Below are positions 16,877 through 24,017 of a stretch of DNA of 64,000 nt, piece by piece. Location: assembly GCF_000264455.2 (NCBI RefSeq), contig NC_017956.1, forward strand, positions 2,029,501 through 2,093,500, read 5' to 3'. Numbering within the stretch: the first letter of the stretch is position 1; each line of letters begins with the position of its first letter. The notes beneath the pieces were generated by a model that was not told the origin of the DNA, ran no database searches, and was given only the letters and a program-made list of their open reading frames with translations. The stretch is from Tistrella mobilis KA081020-065. GTDB taxonomy: Bacteria > Pseudomonadota > Alphaproteobacteria > Tistrellales > Tistrellaceae. The position numbers and the translations under genes are program-made.

Positions 16877-16959
16877 TGGCCGCCACGTCGGGCCCGTGAA
16901 AACACGCGAATGTCACATCGCACTTGCCAGAAGGGCGATCTCCGCGCCAGGATGTCGCC

Positions 16960-17150
16960 ACTGACGGTGTCCTGCGGTCGTTCCGCGGGATGAAAAGGGA
17001 ATGCGGTGCGCCGGTGGAATAGTCCGGCAATTCCGCGGCTGCCCCCGCAACTGTAAGCGGAGAGTGCCCCGTCTCGAAACCACTGGCCCCGACGGGGGCC
17101 GGGAAGGTGACGGTGGTGCGACGACCCGCGAGCCAGGAGACCTGCCGTCA
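16960..17150 (+). ncRNA. cobalamin (AdoCbl) riboswitch
   Basis: The leader shows the classical conserved blocks in order: the core GGGATGAAAAGGGAATGCGG (about 16987-17006), the CCCCCGCAACTGTAAGCGG block (17042-17060), a GC-rich peripheral hairpin near 17083-17101, GGGAAGG (17101-17107) and the B12 box GAGCCAGGAGACCTGCC (17130-17146). It lies about 150 nt before btuB in the same orientation. Binding of adenosylcobalamin would be expected to shut off expression of the five-gene uptake operon. The 5' limit is approximate, and the expression platform between 17150 and the btuB start is not resolved by eye. Confidence 0.96.
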
Positions 17151-17298
17151 TTCGCGGTCACGGGCGAGCACGTCGGGCGGGGTGTACCGATGGGTTCTGC
17201 AAGCGGTGGCGGCGCGGCATGAAGATCCCATAGGCCCCCAAGGCTTCCCTCTTCCCGCCCCGACCAGCCACCCTGCCGGCCTCGTTCGCAGTGACCGC

Positions 17299-19269
17299 AT
17301 GATGCAGTCGAACGAGGTCGAGTATCCCGTGTCCACGAATCGCCCGCCCGCTTTTGCCCGGTCGCGCCGTCTGCTCCGCACCGGTCTGACCCTGCCGCTG
17401 GTCGCCCTCTCTCCGTTTGCGGTCGCCACCGTCGCCACAGCCGAAGATGCCGGCACTGACGAGGCGACCCGCCTCGGACCGCTTTCCGTCTCGGCCGCCC
17501 GCAGCCCCGTGCCGGTCGAAACCGTCGGCAGCGCCGTCACCGTCATCACCGCCGAACAGATCGAGGCTCTGCAGATCCGTCAGGTCGACGATGTGTTGCG
17601 CCTGGTTCCCGGCGTCGCAGTCAGCCGCACCGGATCGGTCGGCGGCATGTCGCAAATCCGTATCCGGGGCTCGGAAGGCAATCAGACGCTGGTGCGCATC
17701 GACGGCATCGAAGTCTCCGACCCTTCGGGCGGTTCGGAATTCGATTTCGGCCATCTGCTCGCCTACGAGATCGAGCGGATCGAAGTGCTGCGCGGGCCGC
17801 AGAGCGCGCTCTATGGCTCAGACGCCGTGGGTGGCGTGATCGACATCACGACGAAGCGTGGCTCCGGCCCGCTCTCGGGCAGTGTGCGGACCGAGGCCGG
17901 CAGTTTCGACACCCGCGAAGCGGTCGGCACGGTCTCCTATGGCGACCAGATCTTCGACGCGCTGGTCTCGGCCCAAAGCTTCCGCACCGACGGCATCTCG
18001 TCCGCAGACGAACGCGCCGGCAATCCGGAGAAGGACGGCTACCGCAACCGTTCGGCCTTTGCCAAATTCGGCCTGCGGCCGTCCGAAGACCTGGAGTTCG
18101 CCCTGGTCGGCAGGACCGTGCGCTATCGGGCCGAAGGCGATGGCTATTCCACCCTCCCTTACGACGCCGATGAGGAAACCCGCGGTACGCAGACCTTCCT
18201 GCGCGGCGAAGCGCGCTACGCCATGGCGGACGGCCGCTGGCATCATAAGGTCGGCCTTGCCAACACCGAACATGATCGCGACTACCGATCAGATGGCAGC
18301 ATCACCAGCACCTATCTGGGCCGCCGGCTGAAGGCAGACTATCAGACCGACTACGGGTTCGAGACCGGCGCCGTCAGTCACGATCTTTCGCTGGGAACCG
18401 AGTATGAACGCGAAACCGTACGAACCAGCAGTGCCTGGTCAACGGTCGACCGTGCCTTTGATTCCACAGGTTTTGCGGGGGAATACCGCCTCGGGCTCTA
18501 CGACCAGCTCTTTCTCTCTGCGGCCGGACGCTACGACAAGAATGAAATCTTCGACGATCAGAAGACCTGGCGCTTCACCGCAGCCTGGCTGATCCCGGGC
18601 ACGGATACCAAACTGCGGGCTTCTTATGGAACTGGCATCAAGAACCCGACCTTGTTTGAGTTGTTCGGCTACACCAATACCTATCAAGGAAATCCCGATC
18701 TGAAGCCTGAAGAGGCAACCGGCTGGGATGCCGGTATCGAGCACAGCTTCTTCGATGGCCGATTCGTGATCGATTTCGGCTGGTTCCGTCAGGACATCGA
18801 AAACCTGATCCAAGGCAGCGGCAGCACGTCGATCAACCTGCCCGGCGCATCACGGGTCAATGGGATAGAAACCTCGGTCACCATTCGGCCGGTTTCGTGG
18901 GCCGATCTGCGGCTGGCCTATACGTATACAGACGGAGAAGACTCCAACGGGCAGGAGTTGGTGCGTCGTGCGCCGCACATCGCCAGTGCCGATCTCGCGA
19001 CCCGCTTTCTCGACAACCGTGGCCGGGCCGGCCTCTCTGTCGTCTACAACGGCGAACAGAAAGACTGGGCCTACGATGCCTTCTACAACCGAAGCGTCGT
19101 CACCCTCGACGATTACACCCTCGTCAACCTCACCGCCGCCTATGATCTCACCGACACGGTCGAAATTTTTGGCCGGATCGATAATCTCTTTGACGAGGAG
19201 TATCAGGAGGTTCTGGGTTACGGCTCACGCGGTCGCGCAGGCTATGCCGGCCTGCGGATGCGGTTCTGA
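17299..19269 (+). CDS. btuB: TonB-dependent vitamin B12 receptor BtuB
   Basis: This is an outer-membrane beta-barrel of about 656 residues. A signal peptide (PLVALSPFAVATVATAEDAG) is followed by a TonB-box/plug region (LGPLSVSAARSPVPVETVGS, DDVLRLVPGVAVSRTGSVGG, RIRGSEGNQTLVRIDG). The plug core IERIEVLRGPQSALYGSDA comes next, and the barrel ends in an aromatic-terminated strand (GYAGLRMRF). The riboswitch and the BtuFCD genes behind it make cobalamin the likely substrate. Starts at 17299, 17302 or GTG 17329 are all possible, as none has a strong ribosome site. A longer frame reaching into the riboswitch is rejected. Confidence 0.92.
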   Translation: MMQSNEVEYPVSTNRPPAFARSRRLLRTGLTLPLVALSPFAVATVATAEDAGTDEATRLGPLSVSAARSPVPVETVGSAVTVITAEQIEALQIRQVDDVLRLVPGVAVSRTGSVGGMSQIRIRGSEGNQTLVRIDGIEVSDPSGGSEFDFGHLLAYEIERIEVLRGPQSALYGSDAVGGVIDITTKRGSGPLSGSVRTEAGSFDTREAVGTVSYGDQIFDALVSAQSFRTDGISSADERAGNPEKDGYRNRSAFAKFGLRPSEDLEFALVGRTVRYRAEGDGYSTLPYDADEETRGTQTFLRGEARYAMADGRWHHKVGLANTEHDRDYRSDGSITSTYLGRRLKADYQTDYGFETGAVSHDLSLGTEYERETVRTSSAWSTVDRAFDSTGFAGEYRLGLYDQLFLSAAGRYDKNEIFDDQKTWRFTAAWLIPGTDTKLRASYGTGIKNPTLFELFGYTNTYQGNPDLKPEEATGWDAGIEHSFFDGRFVIDFGWFRQDIENLIQGSGSTSINLPGASRVNGIETSVTIRPVSWADLRLAYTYTDGEDSNGQELVRRAPHIASADLATRFLDNRGRAGLSVVYNGEQKDWAYDAFYNRSVVTLDDYTLVNLTAAYDLTDTVEIFGRIDNLFDEEYQEVLGYGSRGRAGYAGLRMRF

Positions 19270-19272
19270 TCC

Positions 19273-20151
19273 ATGCGGAGGTGGCGCCTCACGCTCCGCC
19301 CGACCGGCCTTCTGCTGACCGGCCTGTTGCTCGCGATCCTGCCCCCGGCTTTCGCCGGGGACGGGCCGCGCCGGATCGTGTCGATGAACCTGTGTGCCGA
19401 TGAATTGCTGCTGCGCCTGGCGCCGCCCGGCCGGCTGGTATCGGTCACCTGGCTGGCCGCGGGGCCGGCGGCGATCGATCCTGCAGCAGCGCAAGGGCTG
19501 GTGTTCAATCACGGCCGGGCGGAGGAGATTGCCCGGCTCGCCCCGGATCTGGTGGTCGCCGGCCGCTACACCACGCTGACGACCACGCAGATGCTGCGCA
19601 GGGCCGGCATCCCGGTGCTGCTGCTCGACGAGGCGACCAGCCTCGCCGGCATCCGGTCCCAGGTCACCAGCCTTGCGGCGGCCGTGGGCAACCCCGCTGC
19701 CGGCCGGCAGATGCTCGACGCCATGGACCGGATGCTTGGCGAGGCGACCCTGGATGCGAAAGATACACCGCAACCGGGTGTCGTGGTTCTGCGCCCCGGC
19801 GGCGGTGTCGCCGGAGCGGGAACCCTGCAGGACGAGATCCTGGCCGCGGCCGGTCTCCGCAATCTGGCCCCCGATGCGCCGGTCGATGGCGATGGCCGGA
19901 TCGGCCTCGAACGGCTGTTGCGCCTGAAACCCGATCTGCTCGTGCTCGATTCCGACGGGGATGCGCCACCGGCCCTTGCGCGCGAGGTGCTCGACCATCC
20001 GGCCTTCCGGGCACGGGCGGCGGGTATAACCGTCACCAGCCTGCCGGCCGCTCTCTGGGTCTGCCCCGGCCCGTGGGTCGCAGAGGCGGTCGGTCGCTTG
20101 TCGGCCGCGCGACGGTCGCTCGCCGCACGCCCGCGAGGATCGCGGCCATGA
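19273..20151 (+). CDS. btuF: cobalamin ABC transporter substrate-binding protein (BtuF-like)
   Basis: This 292-residue periplasmic binding protein has a signal peptide (LLTGLLLAILPPAFAGDG) and the helical-backbone (PF01497-type) fold. Family segments are RRIVSMNLCADELLLRL, LVFNHGRAEEIARLAPDLVV, GIPVLLLDEATSLAG and a C-terminal LKPDLLVLDSDG. It starts three nt after btuB and its stop overlaps the permease start (ATGA). Position and riboswitch control support B12 over iron-siderophore as ligand; the protein alone would not decide it. Confidence 0.88.
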   Translation: MRRWRLTLRPTGLLLTGLLLAILPPAFAGDGPRRIVSMNLCADELLLRLAPPGRLVSVTWLAAGPAAIDPAAAQGLVFNHGRAEEIARLAPDLVVAGRYTTLTTTQMLRRAGIPVLLLDEATSLAGIRSQVTSLAAAVGNPAAGRQMLDAMDRMLGEATLDAKDTPQPGVVVLRPGGGVAGAGTLQDEILAAAGLRNLAPDAPVDGDGRIGLERLLRLKPDLLVLDSDGDAPPALAREVLDHPAFRARAAGITVTSLPAALWVCPGPWVAEAVGRLSAARRSLAARPRGSRP

Positions 20152-21143
20152 CGCTGACCACGGGGCGGATATCGGCGGCGCTCCTCCTCCTCACCACCCT
20201 TCTGTCGGTGGCCTCCATCGCTGCCGGGCCGGACGGTCTGGATCTTCCGCGCGCCATGGCCGACGTCGCCCATGGCCGCGACACGCTGGATGCGCTGATC
20301 CTGGTCCAGCTGCGCCTCCCCCGCGCGATCCTCGCGATTGTGCTGGGCGCCGGGCTCGCCATGTCCGGCGCAGCTTTGCAGGGGCTGTTGCGCAACCCGC
20401 TCGCCGATCCGGGCATGGTCGGTGTCTCCGCCTCGGCTGGTCTGGGTGCCGTTGCCGCCTTCTACAGCGGTGCGGCAGCCGCCTGGTCGCTGGCCCTGCC
20501 GCTCGGTGGCATCGCAGGCGCCCTCGCCGCCACGCTGGTCCTGGCCGTGATCGCGGCACGTGGGGCCGGCACCACAGCGCTTATCCTCACCGGCGTCGCC
20601 GTCGGCAGCTTCGCCGCAGCCCTCACCGCCCTCGCCCTCAATCTCGCACCGTCACCTTATGCGGCGCTCGAAATCGTCTTCTGGTTGATGGGATCGCTCA
20701 GCGACCGCAGTATGGATCATGTCTGGCTGGCGGTGCCGCCGGTGATGATCGGTCTGGTGATGCTCGCCCGGCTGGGACGGGCACTCGAAGCGCTGACCCT
20801 TGGCGAGGACACGGCCGCAAGTCTCGGCTTCGATGTCACCCGCACCCGGCTTACGGCGATTCTGGGCACGGCCCTTGCCGTCGGGCCCGGTGTCGCGGTC
20901 GCGGGCGCGGTCGGCTTCGTCGGCCTCATCGTTCCGCATCTGCTGCGGCCGCTGGTCAGCCATCGCCCCGGCGCCCTGTTGCTGGTCGCAGCGCCGGCTG
21001 GCGCCGCTTTCACCCTCTCGGCCGATATCGCCGTTCGCCTGCTGCCGACCCGTCCCGAACTGAAGCTGGGGGTGATGATGGCCCTGATCGGTGCACCCTT
21101 CCTCGCCTCCCTGATCCTGAAGACCGCGCGAAAGGACGGCTGA
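20148..21143 (+). CDS. btuC: cobalamin ABC transporter permease (BtuC-like)
   Basis: This permease of 331 residues belongs to the FecCD/BtuC family, with about ten membrane helices. The signatures are LRLPRAILAIVLGAGLAMSG, LLRNPLADPGMVGVSASAG and VGFVGLIVPHLLRPLVSHRP (the cytoplasmic coupling region). The ATG at 20148 overlaps the BtuF-like stop by 4 nt. The in-frame upstream extension to 20073 is not needed. It forms the channel of the importer fed by the BtuF-like protein. Confidence 0.92.
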   Translation: MTLTTGRISAALLLLTTLLSVASIAAGPDGLDLPRAMADVAHGRDTLDALILVQLRLPRAILAIVLGAGLAMSGAALQGLLRNPLADPGMVGVSASAGLGAVAAFYSGAAAAWSLALPLGGIAGALAATLVLAVIAARGAGTTALILTGVAVGSFAAALTALALNLAPSPYAALEIVFWLMGSLSDRSMDHVWLAVPPVMIGLVMLARLGRALEALTLGEDTAASLGFDVTRTRLTAILGTALAVGPGVAVAGAVGFVGLIVPHLLRPLVSHRPGALLLVAAPAGAAFTLSADIAVRLLPTRPELKLGVMMALIGAPFLASLILKTARKDG

Positions 21144-21146
21144 CCC

Positions 21147-21992
21147 ATGGACGCAATGACCCTCGAGGCGCGACACCTCACCCTTTCAGGGCCGGACCGC
21201 GCCCGGCTCGAGGATCTGTCCCTGTCGTTCGGCCCGGGGCAACTGGTGGGGATGATCGGCCCCAATGGCGCCGGCAAGACCACGCTGCTGCGCCTGCTCG
21301 CCGGTCTTCTGACCCCGCAGCATGGGAGCGTGCTGCTCGGCGGGCAGCCGCTGCACCAATTGTCGGCCGCCGCCCGGGCGCGTCGGATCTCGTATCTGGC
21401 CCAGGGTGCCGATGTGCATTGGCCGCTGCCGGCCGAGGCGGTGGTGGCACTCGGCCGCCTGCCTCATGGTGACGGCCGGACGCCCGCGGACCGCCGCGCG
21501 ATCGCCCGGGCCATGGCGGCGACCGGGACGGAGGGCTTTGCCGGACGCAGGGTCGACAGGCTTTCAGGCGGTGAACGGCTCAAGGTTCTGCTGGCCCGGG
21601 CACTGGCCGTGGAAGCACCGATCCTGCTTGCAGACGAGCCGGTCGCAGCCCTCGACCCGGCACACCAGCTCGATGTCATGGACTTGCTCAAAGCCCTTGC
21701 AGGCGATGGCCGGTTGGTGGTGGCCGTGCTGCATGATCTGGGGCTTGCCGCCCGGTTCTGCGGCCGGCTGGTGTTGCTGGCCGAGGGTCGCCTGATTGCC
21801 GACGGACCACCTGAAGCCGTGCTCACCCCCGACAGGCTGGCACGGGCCTATGGCATCCGCGCCCTGCACGGCCAGGCCGACGGCCATCTGCTGGTCGTGC
21901 CCTGGGCCCGCACCCGGATGTCGGAACAGTCAAGGGAGACAACGACATGCCCCACGCATCCATCTCCGGGTATGAGGATGCAGGCCCGCTGA
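21147..21992 (+). CDS. btuD: cobalamin ABC transporter ATP-binding protein (BtuD-like)
   Basis: This 281-residue ATPase has Walker A (GPNGAGKTT), Q-loop (YLAQGADV), signature (LSGGERLKVLLARA), Walker B (ILLADEPVAALDP) and switch His (VLHDLGLAARF). It energises the BtuC-like permease. Its last 15 codons overlap the next gene by 46 nt, and the ribosome site of that gene (AAGGGAG) lies inside it. The C-terminal 20 residues, rich in Thr, Pro and Met, are not typical of the family and may exist only because of this overlap. Confidence 0.92.
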   Translation: MDAMTLEARHLTLSGPDRARLEDLSLSFGPGQLVGMIGPNGAGKTTLLRLLAGLLTPQHGSVLLGGQPLHQLSAAARARRISYLAQGADVHWPLPAEAVVALGRLPHGDGRTPADRRAIARAMAATGTEGFAGRRVDRLSGGERLKVLLARALAVEAPILLADEPVAALDPAHQLDVMDLLKALAGDGRLVVAVLHDLGLAARFCGRLVLLAEGRLIADGPPEAVLTPDRLARAYGIRALHGQADGHLLVVPWARTRMSEQSRETTTCPTHPSPGMRMQAR

Positions 21993-22990
21993 TCGGCCAG
22001 CTTCTGGCCGATCCGGCCCAGGCCTGGAGCACAGGCAGCTTCGGCGCCATCGCCGAGTTCATGCGCGATGCCGACGAGCCGCTGTCGGTCGATGCCGCAG
22101 AGGACCCCGAGCGCCGCCGGCTGGCCACCGCCCGTGGTGCCATCGCCATCACGCCGCGGAGCGATGTCCGGCCTCTGGCCTACGAGACCCCGTCCTCCGA
22201 CGGCGTCGGCTGGTCGTCGGCCATCGCCTTCTGCCTGCCCGAAGCCGCCGCCGCCGGGCCGGCCCGAACGGTGGTCACCGAACTCGGCCCCGATGCGGAT
22301 GCCGTACGGCCGGAAGACCGGAGCGGCATCCTGTTCGATCTGGGCCTCGGCATTCCTCATACCGAGGCCTGCCTGCGCGCCTCGACGCCCGAGGCGCTCT
22401 CGGTTCTCCGCAGGCTGGCCGGCCGGCCGCTGCTGGGAGAGGATCCGGGCCCGCGCCGGGCCGCCGCAGCCACCGGGGCCCATCGGGTCTTCATGACCCG
22501 GCTGGCAAGGATCGAGGTATTTCAGGCCGTTCCGAAGACGGGTGAAACCTCTCCCGAAGGACCCCACACCCATCTTCTGCCGAAGCTGCTGGCCGCCGGT
22601 CGCGCCGCCTCCGCCAATACGCCGATCCCCGACGGGTTGGTCGCCGGTCTGACGCTGCATGCGTGCAATCCGCTGCGCGACGCTCTCGGTCGGCCGCGTG
22701 CCTTCGACCCGATCGCCCATCAGACCTTTCAGGAATTGATGACGACGCATGGCGATCCGCGGGTGCTGGCCCTGCGTCAGCGGTTCCTGGCCGCACTGCA
22801 GGACGGGATGGCTCCGGACGCCCTGGTCGATGACGATGATCAGGATGCCCGGCATCTGCGGGCGACGCTTCGTGTGGCTCTGCGTCAGGCCCGCCAGACG
22901 CAGGCGGCCAGAACGGCTGTTATCGATGCCTGGGGCGATGCAATCGATCCTGCCACTCGTGGGCGGGCTCCGGACGCCGTCTGCGGCTGA
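21947..22990 (+). CDS. uncharacterised protein, last gene of the B12-uptake operon (possibly DUF6925)
   Basis: This 347-residue soluble protein has no signal peptide, no membrane helix and no classical enzyme motif I can name. Distinctive stretches are GLGIPHTEACLRASTPEAL, HRVFMTRLARIEVFQAVP, SPEGPHTHLLPKLLAAGR and LHACNPLRDALG. The histidine-rich PHTEACLR and PEGPHTHLLPK segments could bind a metal or corrinoid. My recollection is that similar proteins (perhaps DUF6925) accompany BtuFCD genes in other Alphaproteobacteria; this is unverified. The start at 21947 follows AAGGGAG by 8 nt. Being the fifth gene after a cobalamin riboswitch implies a role in B12 handling. Confidence 0.6.
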   Translation: MPHASISGYEDAGPLIGQLLADPAQAWSTGSFGAIAEFMRDADEPLSVDAAEDPERRRLATARGAIAITPRSDVRPLAYETPSSDGVGWSSAIAFCLPEAAAAGPARTVVTELGPDADAVRPEDRSGILFDLGLGIPHTEACLRASTPEALSVLRRLAGRPLLGEDPGPRRAAAATGAHRVFMTRLARIEVFQAVPKTGETSPEGPHTHLLPKLLAAGRAASANTPIPDGLVAGLTLHACNPLRDALGRPRAFDPIAHQTFQELMTTHGDPRVLALRQRFLAALQDGMAPDALVDDDDQDARHLRATLRVALRQARQTQAARTAVIDAWGDAIDPATRGRAPDAVCG

Positions 22991-22994
22991 GGCG

Positions 22995-24017
22995 TCAGTC
23001 GCCGGCCGCCGCCTTCGCGGCCCGGCGACGCTCGCGCTCGATCCGGCGCCATTTGGCGACATTGGCATTATGCTCGGCGAGCGTGCGCGCAAAGACATGG
23101 CCGCCCGTCCCGTCGGCCACGAAATACAGCGCATCGGTCTCCGCCGGCTGGGCCACGGCCATCAGCGCTGCCCGGCCGGGCAAGGCGATCGGCGTCTTCG
23201 GCAGACCGTCGATCTCGTAGGTGTTCCAGTCGTGGGCATTGCCCAGATCGGACCGGGTGATACCGCGGTCGATCCGGCCGCTGCCCTCGCTCAGGCCATA
23301 GATGACGGTCGGATCCGACTGCAGCCGCATGCCGCGCTTCAGCCGGTTCACGAACACCCCGGCCACAAGCGGCCGCTCGTCCGGAATGCCGGTCTCCCGC
23401 TCGACGATCGAGGCCAGGATCAGCATCTCTTCGGGCGTCGACAGCGGCAGATCCGGCCGCCTTGCGGCCCAGGCATCGTCCAGTGCCTTGTCCATCGCCG
23501 CCTTCATCCGGCGGATCAGGGCGCCGCGATCATCGCCACGGGTATAGGTGTAGGTCTCGGGCAGCAGCGCACCTTCGGCGAACCCCTCCATCGGCGGCAT
23601 GTCGCCGCTGAGCAGGTCGTCGCCGGCCACCGCCTCCCAGGCGGCGCGAAGCGTGATGCCTTCGGGCAGGGTCAGGCGGTGCAGCACGACCCTGCCTTCG
23701 ACCAGCATGTCGATGATGTCGGACGGGCTCTGCCCCGGCTCGACCCGGTATTCGCCGGCCTTCAGCCGGGTCTGCACATCCAGCAGCACCACCGCCGCCC
23801 GAAAGACCGCCGGTTGGTCGATCGCCCCGGCATCGGCCAGTTCACGGGTGATGCCGGCGACGCCCGTACCCCGCGGCAACAGCACGGTCCGGGCCTCGGT
23901 CAGCGGCCCGGGCGTTTCCAGCCAGACGGAGCCCCACCACAACAACGCCCCCGCCCCCGCGACGACCAGGGTCGTCAGGGAGACGAGGGCGATGATGAGA
24001 TGCTTCAGGAAGCGCAC
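22995..24017 (-). CDS. mltG: endolytic murein transglycosylase MltG
   Basis: This 340-residue protein has one N-terminal membrane helix (about 6-28), a LysM-like region (TVLLPRGTGVAGITRELADA, then LKAGEYRVEPGQSPSDII) and the catalytic YceG domain. The catalytic Glu lies in ILASIVERETG, followed by FVNRLKRGMRLQSDPTVIYG and LPKTPIALPGRAALMA. It cleaves nascent glycan strands and helps terminate peptidoglycan chains. It lies 50 nt downstream of fabF on the same strand. The stop is 4 nt from the end of the convergent B12 operon. Confidence 0.95.
   Translation of the reverse strand: MRFLKHLIIALVSLTTLVVAGAGALLWWGSVWLETPGPLTEARTVLLPRGTGVAGITRELADAGAIDQPAVFRAAVVLLDVQTRLKAGEYRVEPGQSPSDIIDMLVEGRVVLHRLTLPEGITLRAAWEAVAGDDLLSGDMPPMEGFAEGALLPETYTYTRGDDRGALIRRMKAAMDKALDDAWAARRPDLPLSTPEEMLILASIVERETGIPDERPLVAGVFVNRLKRGMRLQSDPTVIYGLSEGSGRIDRGITRSDLGNAHDWNTYEIDGLPKTPIALPGRAALMAVAQPAETDALYFVADGTGGHVFARTLAEHNANVAKWRRIERERRRAAKAAAGD

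Follow-up and report, generated by a model that had tools for sequence, protein, structure and literature searches.

A gene of the Pfam family DUF6925 closes the TonB-dependent B12 uptake operon of Tistrella mobilis KA081020-065, and by its recurrent location in riboswitch-headed btu operons it is a component of the BtuBFCD operon. The operon thus joins a soluble, conserved extra member to the genes of B12 uptake, one whose family is catalogued and functionally blank. The link to B12 is well supported; as to biochemical activity, which we infer, the chances are about evenly balanced that the protein serves the TonB-dependent B12 importer as a dedicated partner that handles corrinoid in the cytoplasm. 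The operon lies as follows in the window, the whole stretch of 64,000 nucleotides that was analysed.

16948..17163, + strand: cobalamin riboswitch aptamer RF00174 (cmscan, 135.1 bits, full-length model 1-189)
17173..19269, + strand: btuB-like TonB-dependent outer-membrane receptor (Pfam Plug and TonB_dep_Rec barrel; TIGR01779)
19273..20151, + strand: btuF-like periplasmic corrinoid-binding protein (Peripla_BP_2, E 3.7e-18; operon position)
20148..21143, + strand: btuC permease (FecCD, E 1.8e-75; PRK03784 BtuC, E 1.1e-60)
21147..21992, + strand: btuD ATPase (ABC_tran; PRK09536 corrinoid ABC ATPase, E 6.9e-74)
21947..22990, + strand: DUF6925 gene (PF21973, E 1.1e-114, residues 14-315 of 347; pLDDT 90.6; codon-position pattern)
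22559..22582, + strand: GPHTHLLP codons (residues 205-212), candidate corrinoid-contact site (conservation in 42 relatives)
22995..24017, - strand: mltG/yceG (YceG, E 5.8e-81), which bounds the operon downstream

The riboswitch is the sole Rfam match within the window. The start of btuB is approximate, with an open frame from 17107, and TIGR01779 (TonB-B12) matches the receptor at E 1.8e-92, under the model's cut-off; the start of btuC is an estimate, with an open frame from 20073. The DUF6925 reading frame encodes 347 amino acids from an ATG start, preceded by AAGGGAG, a plausible ribosome-binding site. The initial annotation had described a gene overlapping btuD by 46 nt and standing last behind btuB-F-C-D and one riboswitch, and the coordinates, the RF00174 match and the profiles all agree: the 46-nt overlap joins the DUF6925 gene start to the 3′ end of btuD. 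A site scan found no promoter-like match between these two genes, and a terminator scan gave one weak match, within btuB, fewer than in shuffled sequences, and none between btuD and the DUF6925 gene. Compared with a copy from the same genus (L045, 81% amino acid identity), the gene has 47/29/156 differences by codon position over 347 codons, and compared with a same-species copy (L053) it has 10/7/29. The same-genus comparison shows that selection acts on the DUF6925 protein, and judging from these patterns the gene is a real one under purifying selection. The protein is predicted to be cytoplasmic, with no hydrophobic leader or membrane segment visible in its sequence.

The window protein belongs to PF21973 (383 bits against a cut-off of 27, profile positions 4-300 of 300), the sole family matched in Pfam at E≤1. 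No relative was found in NCBIfam or PHROGs, and a PDB sequence search up to E 10 gave no match. The description of the protein as uncharacterised thus stands in that no function is assigned to the family, but not in the sense of an unrecorded one, as it is already filed in Pfam. The profile search also bears out the statement that it resembles no known salvage or adenosyltransferase family, having returned a full-length DUF6925 match and no unrelated enzyme family. The name DUF6925 is absent from the literature searched, and a linkage of the family to B12 appears unreported there, in a body of papers mostly outside subscription journals; the SEED name “BtuN”, which may or may not denote this family, occurs in two genome papers (PMC7038796, PMC8954225). 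Passages of the pCMU01 plasmid paper list btuB, btuF2, btuC2, btuD2 and a riboswitch, and these passages do not mention the gene after btuD2 (PMC3621897).

The case for a role in B12 uptake comes from gene neighbourhoods at 52 loci. Besides the window these comprise 34 loci in whole genomes (L044-L077), six on genome contigs (L001-L006) and 11 on plasmids (L042, L043 and L089-L097). The loci are not independent, as L053 is from the same species as the window and L043 and L096 are closely related. In 33 of the 52, btu genes adjoin DUF6925, and in five further loci its neighbours are B12 genes of another kind or a B12 riboswitch: cbtA in L059 and L066, cbiZ and a riboswitch in L068, a riboswitch in L062, and cobU with cobQ and a corrin/porphyrin methylase in L076. 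One locus (L063) has hemC and hemB alongside. The proposed link to B12 uptake is therefore strongly supported, with 38-39 of the 52 loci beside B12 or tetrapyrrole genes, the opposite of a family found mostly away from them. The family also co-occurs with B12 riboswitches: of 50 stretches scanned, 32 hold an RF00174 match, while the six cobalamin riboswitches in the 6.5 Mb and five contigs of the host genome imply a chance of ~1.6% per 17 kb stretch (about 1-2% expected). The 13 loci with no B12 or tetrapyrrole neighbour would suit a passenger gene whose function is unrelated to B12, but riboswitch enrichment of this size and recurrence in distant families lie far beyond chance and make that explanation extremely improbable.

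The host genome has one DUF6925 copy. By eye, a second riboswitch-headed operon of TonB receptor, binding protein, permease and ATPase lies elsewhere in it (L085, G000:C1:2535000-2547000), with no DUF6925 gene. The other four host riboswitches on G000:C1 have, again by eye, different surroundings: L084 is near a gene that is probably RNR-like, L086 near cob genes, L087 near a cobalt transporter resembling cbiMNQO, and L088 near a cobW/cob cluster.

Linkage to btu genes is dispersed across the family tree, where well-supported branches force at least four changes, and is thus not one inherited block; the pairing with B12 import is met repeatedly in many families of Alphaproteobacteria. On most of the annotated plasmids, the DUF6925 start lies at the preceding stop, 1-23 nt before it or shortly after it, and such close or overlapping starts suggest translational coupling. 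In the genome loci L044, L048 and L058, and in L061, the gene lies upstream of the riboswitch and btuB, so the riboswitch need not control it there. Among its companions are exbB, exbD and tonB (L043, L096), tonB (L052), cobN (L004), methylmalonyl-CoA mutase (L050), metE-annotated genes near further riboswitches (L095) and nrdHIEF (L089). A cytoplasmic corrinoid-sensing regulator of BtuCD or of B12-dependent gene expression could be encoded under a riboswitch and directly 3′ of btuD, often overlapping it, but no DNA-binding or signalling domain is matched and the family also occurs beside cob or cbt genes without btuCD (L059, L066, L076), which leaves a regulator quite unlikely.

Some neighbourhoods hold further genes. 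In Methylobacterium, the gene after DUF6925 encodes a small kinase-like P-loop protein (AAA_33; L042:7933-8457, L069:7395-7937, L097:6942-7472), a possible candidate corrinoid-salvage kinase; a different P-loop protein (AAA_28) is found near DUF6925 in L058. The Phaeobacter btu-cbiZ-DUF6925-exbBD-tonB operon (L043:11113-14774) adjoins DUF1826, phosphoribosyl-AMP cyclohydrolase, thrS and a GTP-binding protein, a grouping reminiscent of a zinc-limitation cluster.

A closer look at the protein shows that G30, G33, A34, E37, F38, G114, D116, D131, G133, R144, L154, G159, R180, R188, E190, G205, P206, T208, H209, P212 and P228 are near-invariant among 42 proteins. E37, D116, R144, R180, R188, E190, H207 and H209 are kept in every btu-linked member that covers the position, and losses of conserved residues occur only in unlinked or cbt/cob-linked copies, mainly L059, L065, L075 and L077. 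The claim of two conserved histidine segments holds for GPHTHLLP, where H207 is kept in 37 of 42 relatives and H209 in 39, but not for PHTEACLR, where H138 is kept in only eight of 42; R144, in the latter segment, is retained in 41 of 42. The C-terminal helical part (~residues 250-347) is missing in short forms, and an hhalign comparison of the GAIAEF and GRIEV hairpins gave no support for their having arisen by internal duplication. A cytoplasmic protein coupled to btuD and carrying this invariant set of charged residues and histidines best fits a receiver or processor of the imported corrinoid.

The histidine pair could instead serve cobalt or another metal, with the B12 linkage arising because corrins need cobalt. 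Metal handling would account for cbtA beside L059 and L066, for the metal-type ABC transporter genes beside L067, and for the fusion of DUF6925 to the Cys-rich DUF1289 (PF06945) in one clade. This clade (support 100/99) comprises six proteins with an N-terminal DUF1289 (L062, L063, L066, L067, L068, L076), and its neighbours include cbtA, cbiZ, cobU/cobQ, hemB/hemC or metal-type ABC transporter genes. These fused, diverged proteins would have a related task, on corrins or on cobalt, in the company of cbtA, cbiZ and cobU/cobQ, although the cbtA and cob genes could indicate cobalt instead. The window protein, however, lacks DUF1289, as does the unfused form in general, the cbtA-linked L059 has lost H207, H209, E37 and R180, and in its most frequent and best conserved form DUF6925 comes after an importer that takes up whole corrinoids, cobN-less genomes included. 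We therefore consider metal handling unlikely. A model of the DUF1289-DUF6925 fusion folded without an alignment reached a pLDDT of 36. At L062:5485-7035, a B12 riboswitch apparently governs an SBP_bac_5-type ABC importer, which may be an unusual one for corrinoids or metal; the DUF1289-DUF6925 gene lies alongside in divergent orientation.

The B12 enzymes encoded with DUF6925 narrow the choice further. Among 28 DUF6925 genomes tested, a PduO-type adenosyltransferase occurs in all 28, CobN in 22, CobA/BtuR in 20 and CbiZ in four. Four genomes lacking cobN (G030, G044, G186, G187) keep DUF6925 beside btu genes, which points to import and not to de novo synthesis, and together with the enzyme counts this suggests a job tied to imported corrinoid for which neither de novo synthesis nor CbiZ is required. 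The PduO and CobA adenosyltransferases, which act as the downstream step for imported B12, are separately encoded in DUF6925 genomes and share no homology with the family. Position downstream of the importer would suit a non-homologous cobalamin adenosyltransferase, but PduO in 28 of 28 genomes, with CobA/BtuR too in 20, means that DUF6925 is not a missing adenosyltransferase; with no CobA or PduO family match either, we rejected this role as highly improbable.

A remodelling enzyme acting on the imported corrinoid, by cleavage or exchange of the lower nucleotide loop or by a CbiZ-like change to a side-chain amide, has more in its favour. The adenosylcobinamide amidohydrolase CbiZ is also found in btu operons and adjoins DUF6925 in the Phaeobacter and Shinella plasmids, cobU/cobQ lie beside it in L076 and cobyric acid synthase in Komagataeibacter, the conserved charged residues look like an active site, and CbiZ is absent from 24 of the 28 genomes. 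Yet CbiZ is a different family (PF01955), unmatched by the window protein in the Pfam search, and DUF6925 cannot simply replace it where both are in one operon, so that a simple CbiZ substitute is disfavoured. As the family is present with and without de novo synthesis genes and matches no hydrolase family, we hold remodelling to be possible but improbable.

The initial annotation had called for a structure prediction, and the AlphaFold2 model (40 sequences) is confidently globular, with a pLDDT of 90.6 and a pTM of 0.89, and has no credible PDB match. Foldseek returned no match at E≤0.001 against the PDB and a viral library, which suggests that the predicted fold is unmatched among the solved structures in the two sets searched. 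A likeness to DNA sliding clamps in the top Foldseek ranks was rejected (TM ~0.1, rmsd 15-21 Å), and the match to 3na2 spans 86 columns with a TM of 0.17 by query and 0.39 by target. Against a corrinoid-handling role stand this lack of a fold or sequence relative of known function and the 13 of 52 loci that have no B12 neighbour.

HmuS/ChuS-type cytoplasmic proteins handle haem behind TonB-receptor/ABC haem importers. Their operons follow the same logic as the one in the window, with TonB receptor, binding protein, permease, ATPase and soluble tetrapyrrole handler, but their ligand is haem where that of DUF6925 would be a corrin, and the likeness is in role only: homology to HmuS/ChuS was not detected as a Pfam match at E≤1, as a PDB sequence match or among the 50 fold matches listed. 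CblC/MMACHC, a decyanase and dealkylase, and BtuM offer a second analogy, as the job proposed for DUF6925, receiving imported cobalamin and stripping its ligand, would resemble theirs. BtuM decyanates B12 via a cysteine (PMC6072759). DUF6925 is soluble and accompanies a separate ABC importer, and no similarity to either was detected in sequence or structure; a PDB sequence search to E 10 does not return CblC/MMACHC, nor is it among the 50 fold matches listed.

In the proposed mechanism of corrinoid handling, the DUF6925 protein would take the corrinoid leaving BtuCD and hold it in a site of Arg, Glu, Asp and His residues formed by E37, D116, R144, R180, R188, E190 and GPHTHLLP, where H207 or H209 could ligate the cobalt or serve as acid/base. 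The corrinoid would then be made ready for the B12 enzymes and the PduO-type adenosyltransferase of the genome, for example by stripping its upper ligand or by presenting it base-off. The earlier suggestion that the protein might process imported corrinoid is thus plausible, while no evidence points specifically to storage. More narrowly, and only tentatively, the family may be a soluble corrinoid processor of new fold that supplies the missing cytosolic receiving and ligand-stripping step of BtuBFCD, an independently evolved counterpart, in Alphaproteobacteria, of human CblC.

A sample of 385 genomes of the class contained the family in 25 cases, and a sample of 398 genomes of the phylum in 10, each of which again belongs to that class. 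Named matches are all alphaproteobacterial: Methylobacterium/Methylorubrum, Hansschlegelia, Phaeobacter, Paracoccus, Azospirillum, Shinella, Aminobacter, Phyllobacterium, Novosphingobium, Komagataeibacter and Sandaracinobacteroides. The E. coli control genome has no DUF6925. Most btuFCD systems, such as that of E. coli, work without it, and given its presence in only 25 of 385 class genomes DUF6925 is best seen as accessory.

To our knowledge, little has been learnt in bacteria about the path of B12 from the inner side of BtuCD to the adenosyltransferase. A conserved, riboswitch-controlled soluble partner with a confidently predicted, unmatched fold would make this step directly testable in Alphaproteobacteria amenable to genetics, such as Methylorubrum, Phaeobacter or Azospirillum, and the B12 linkage gives a Pfam domain of unknown function a functional handle.
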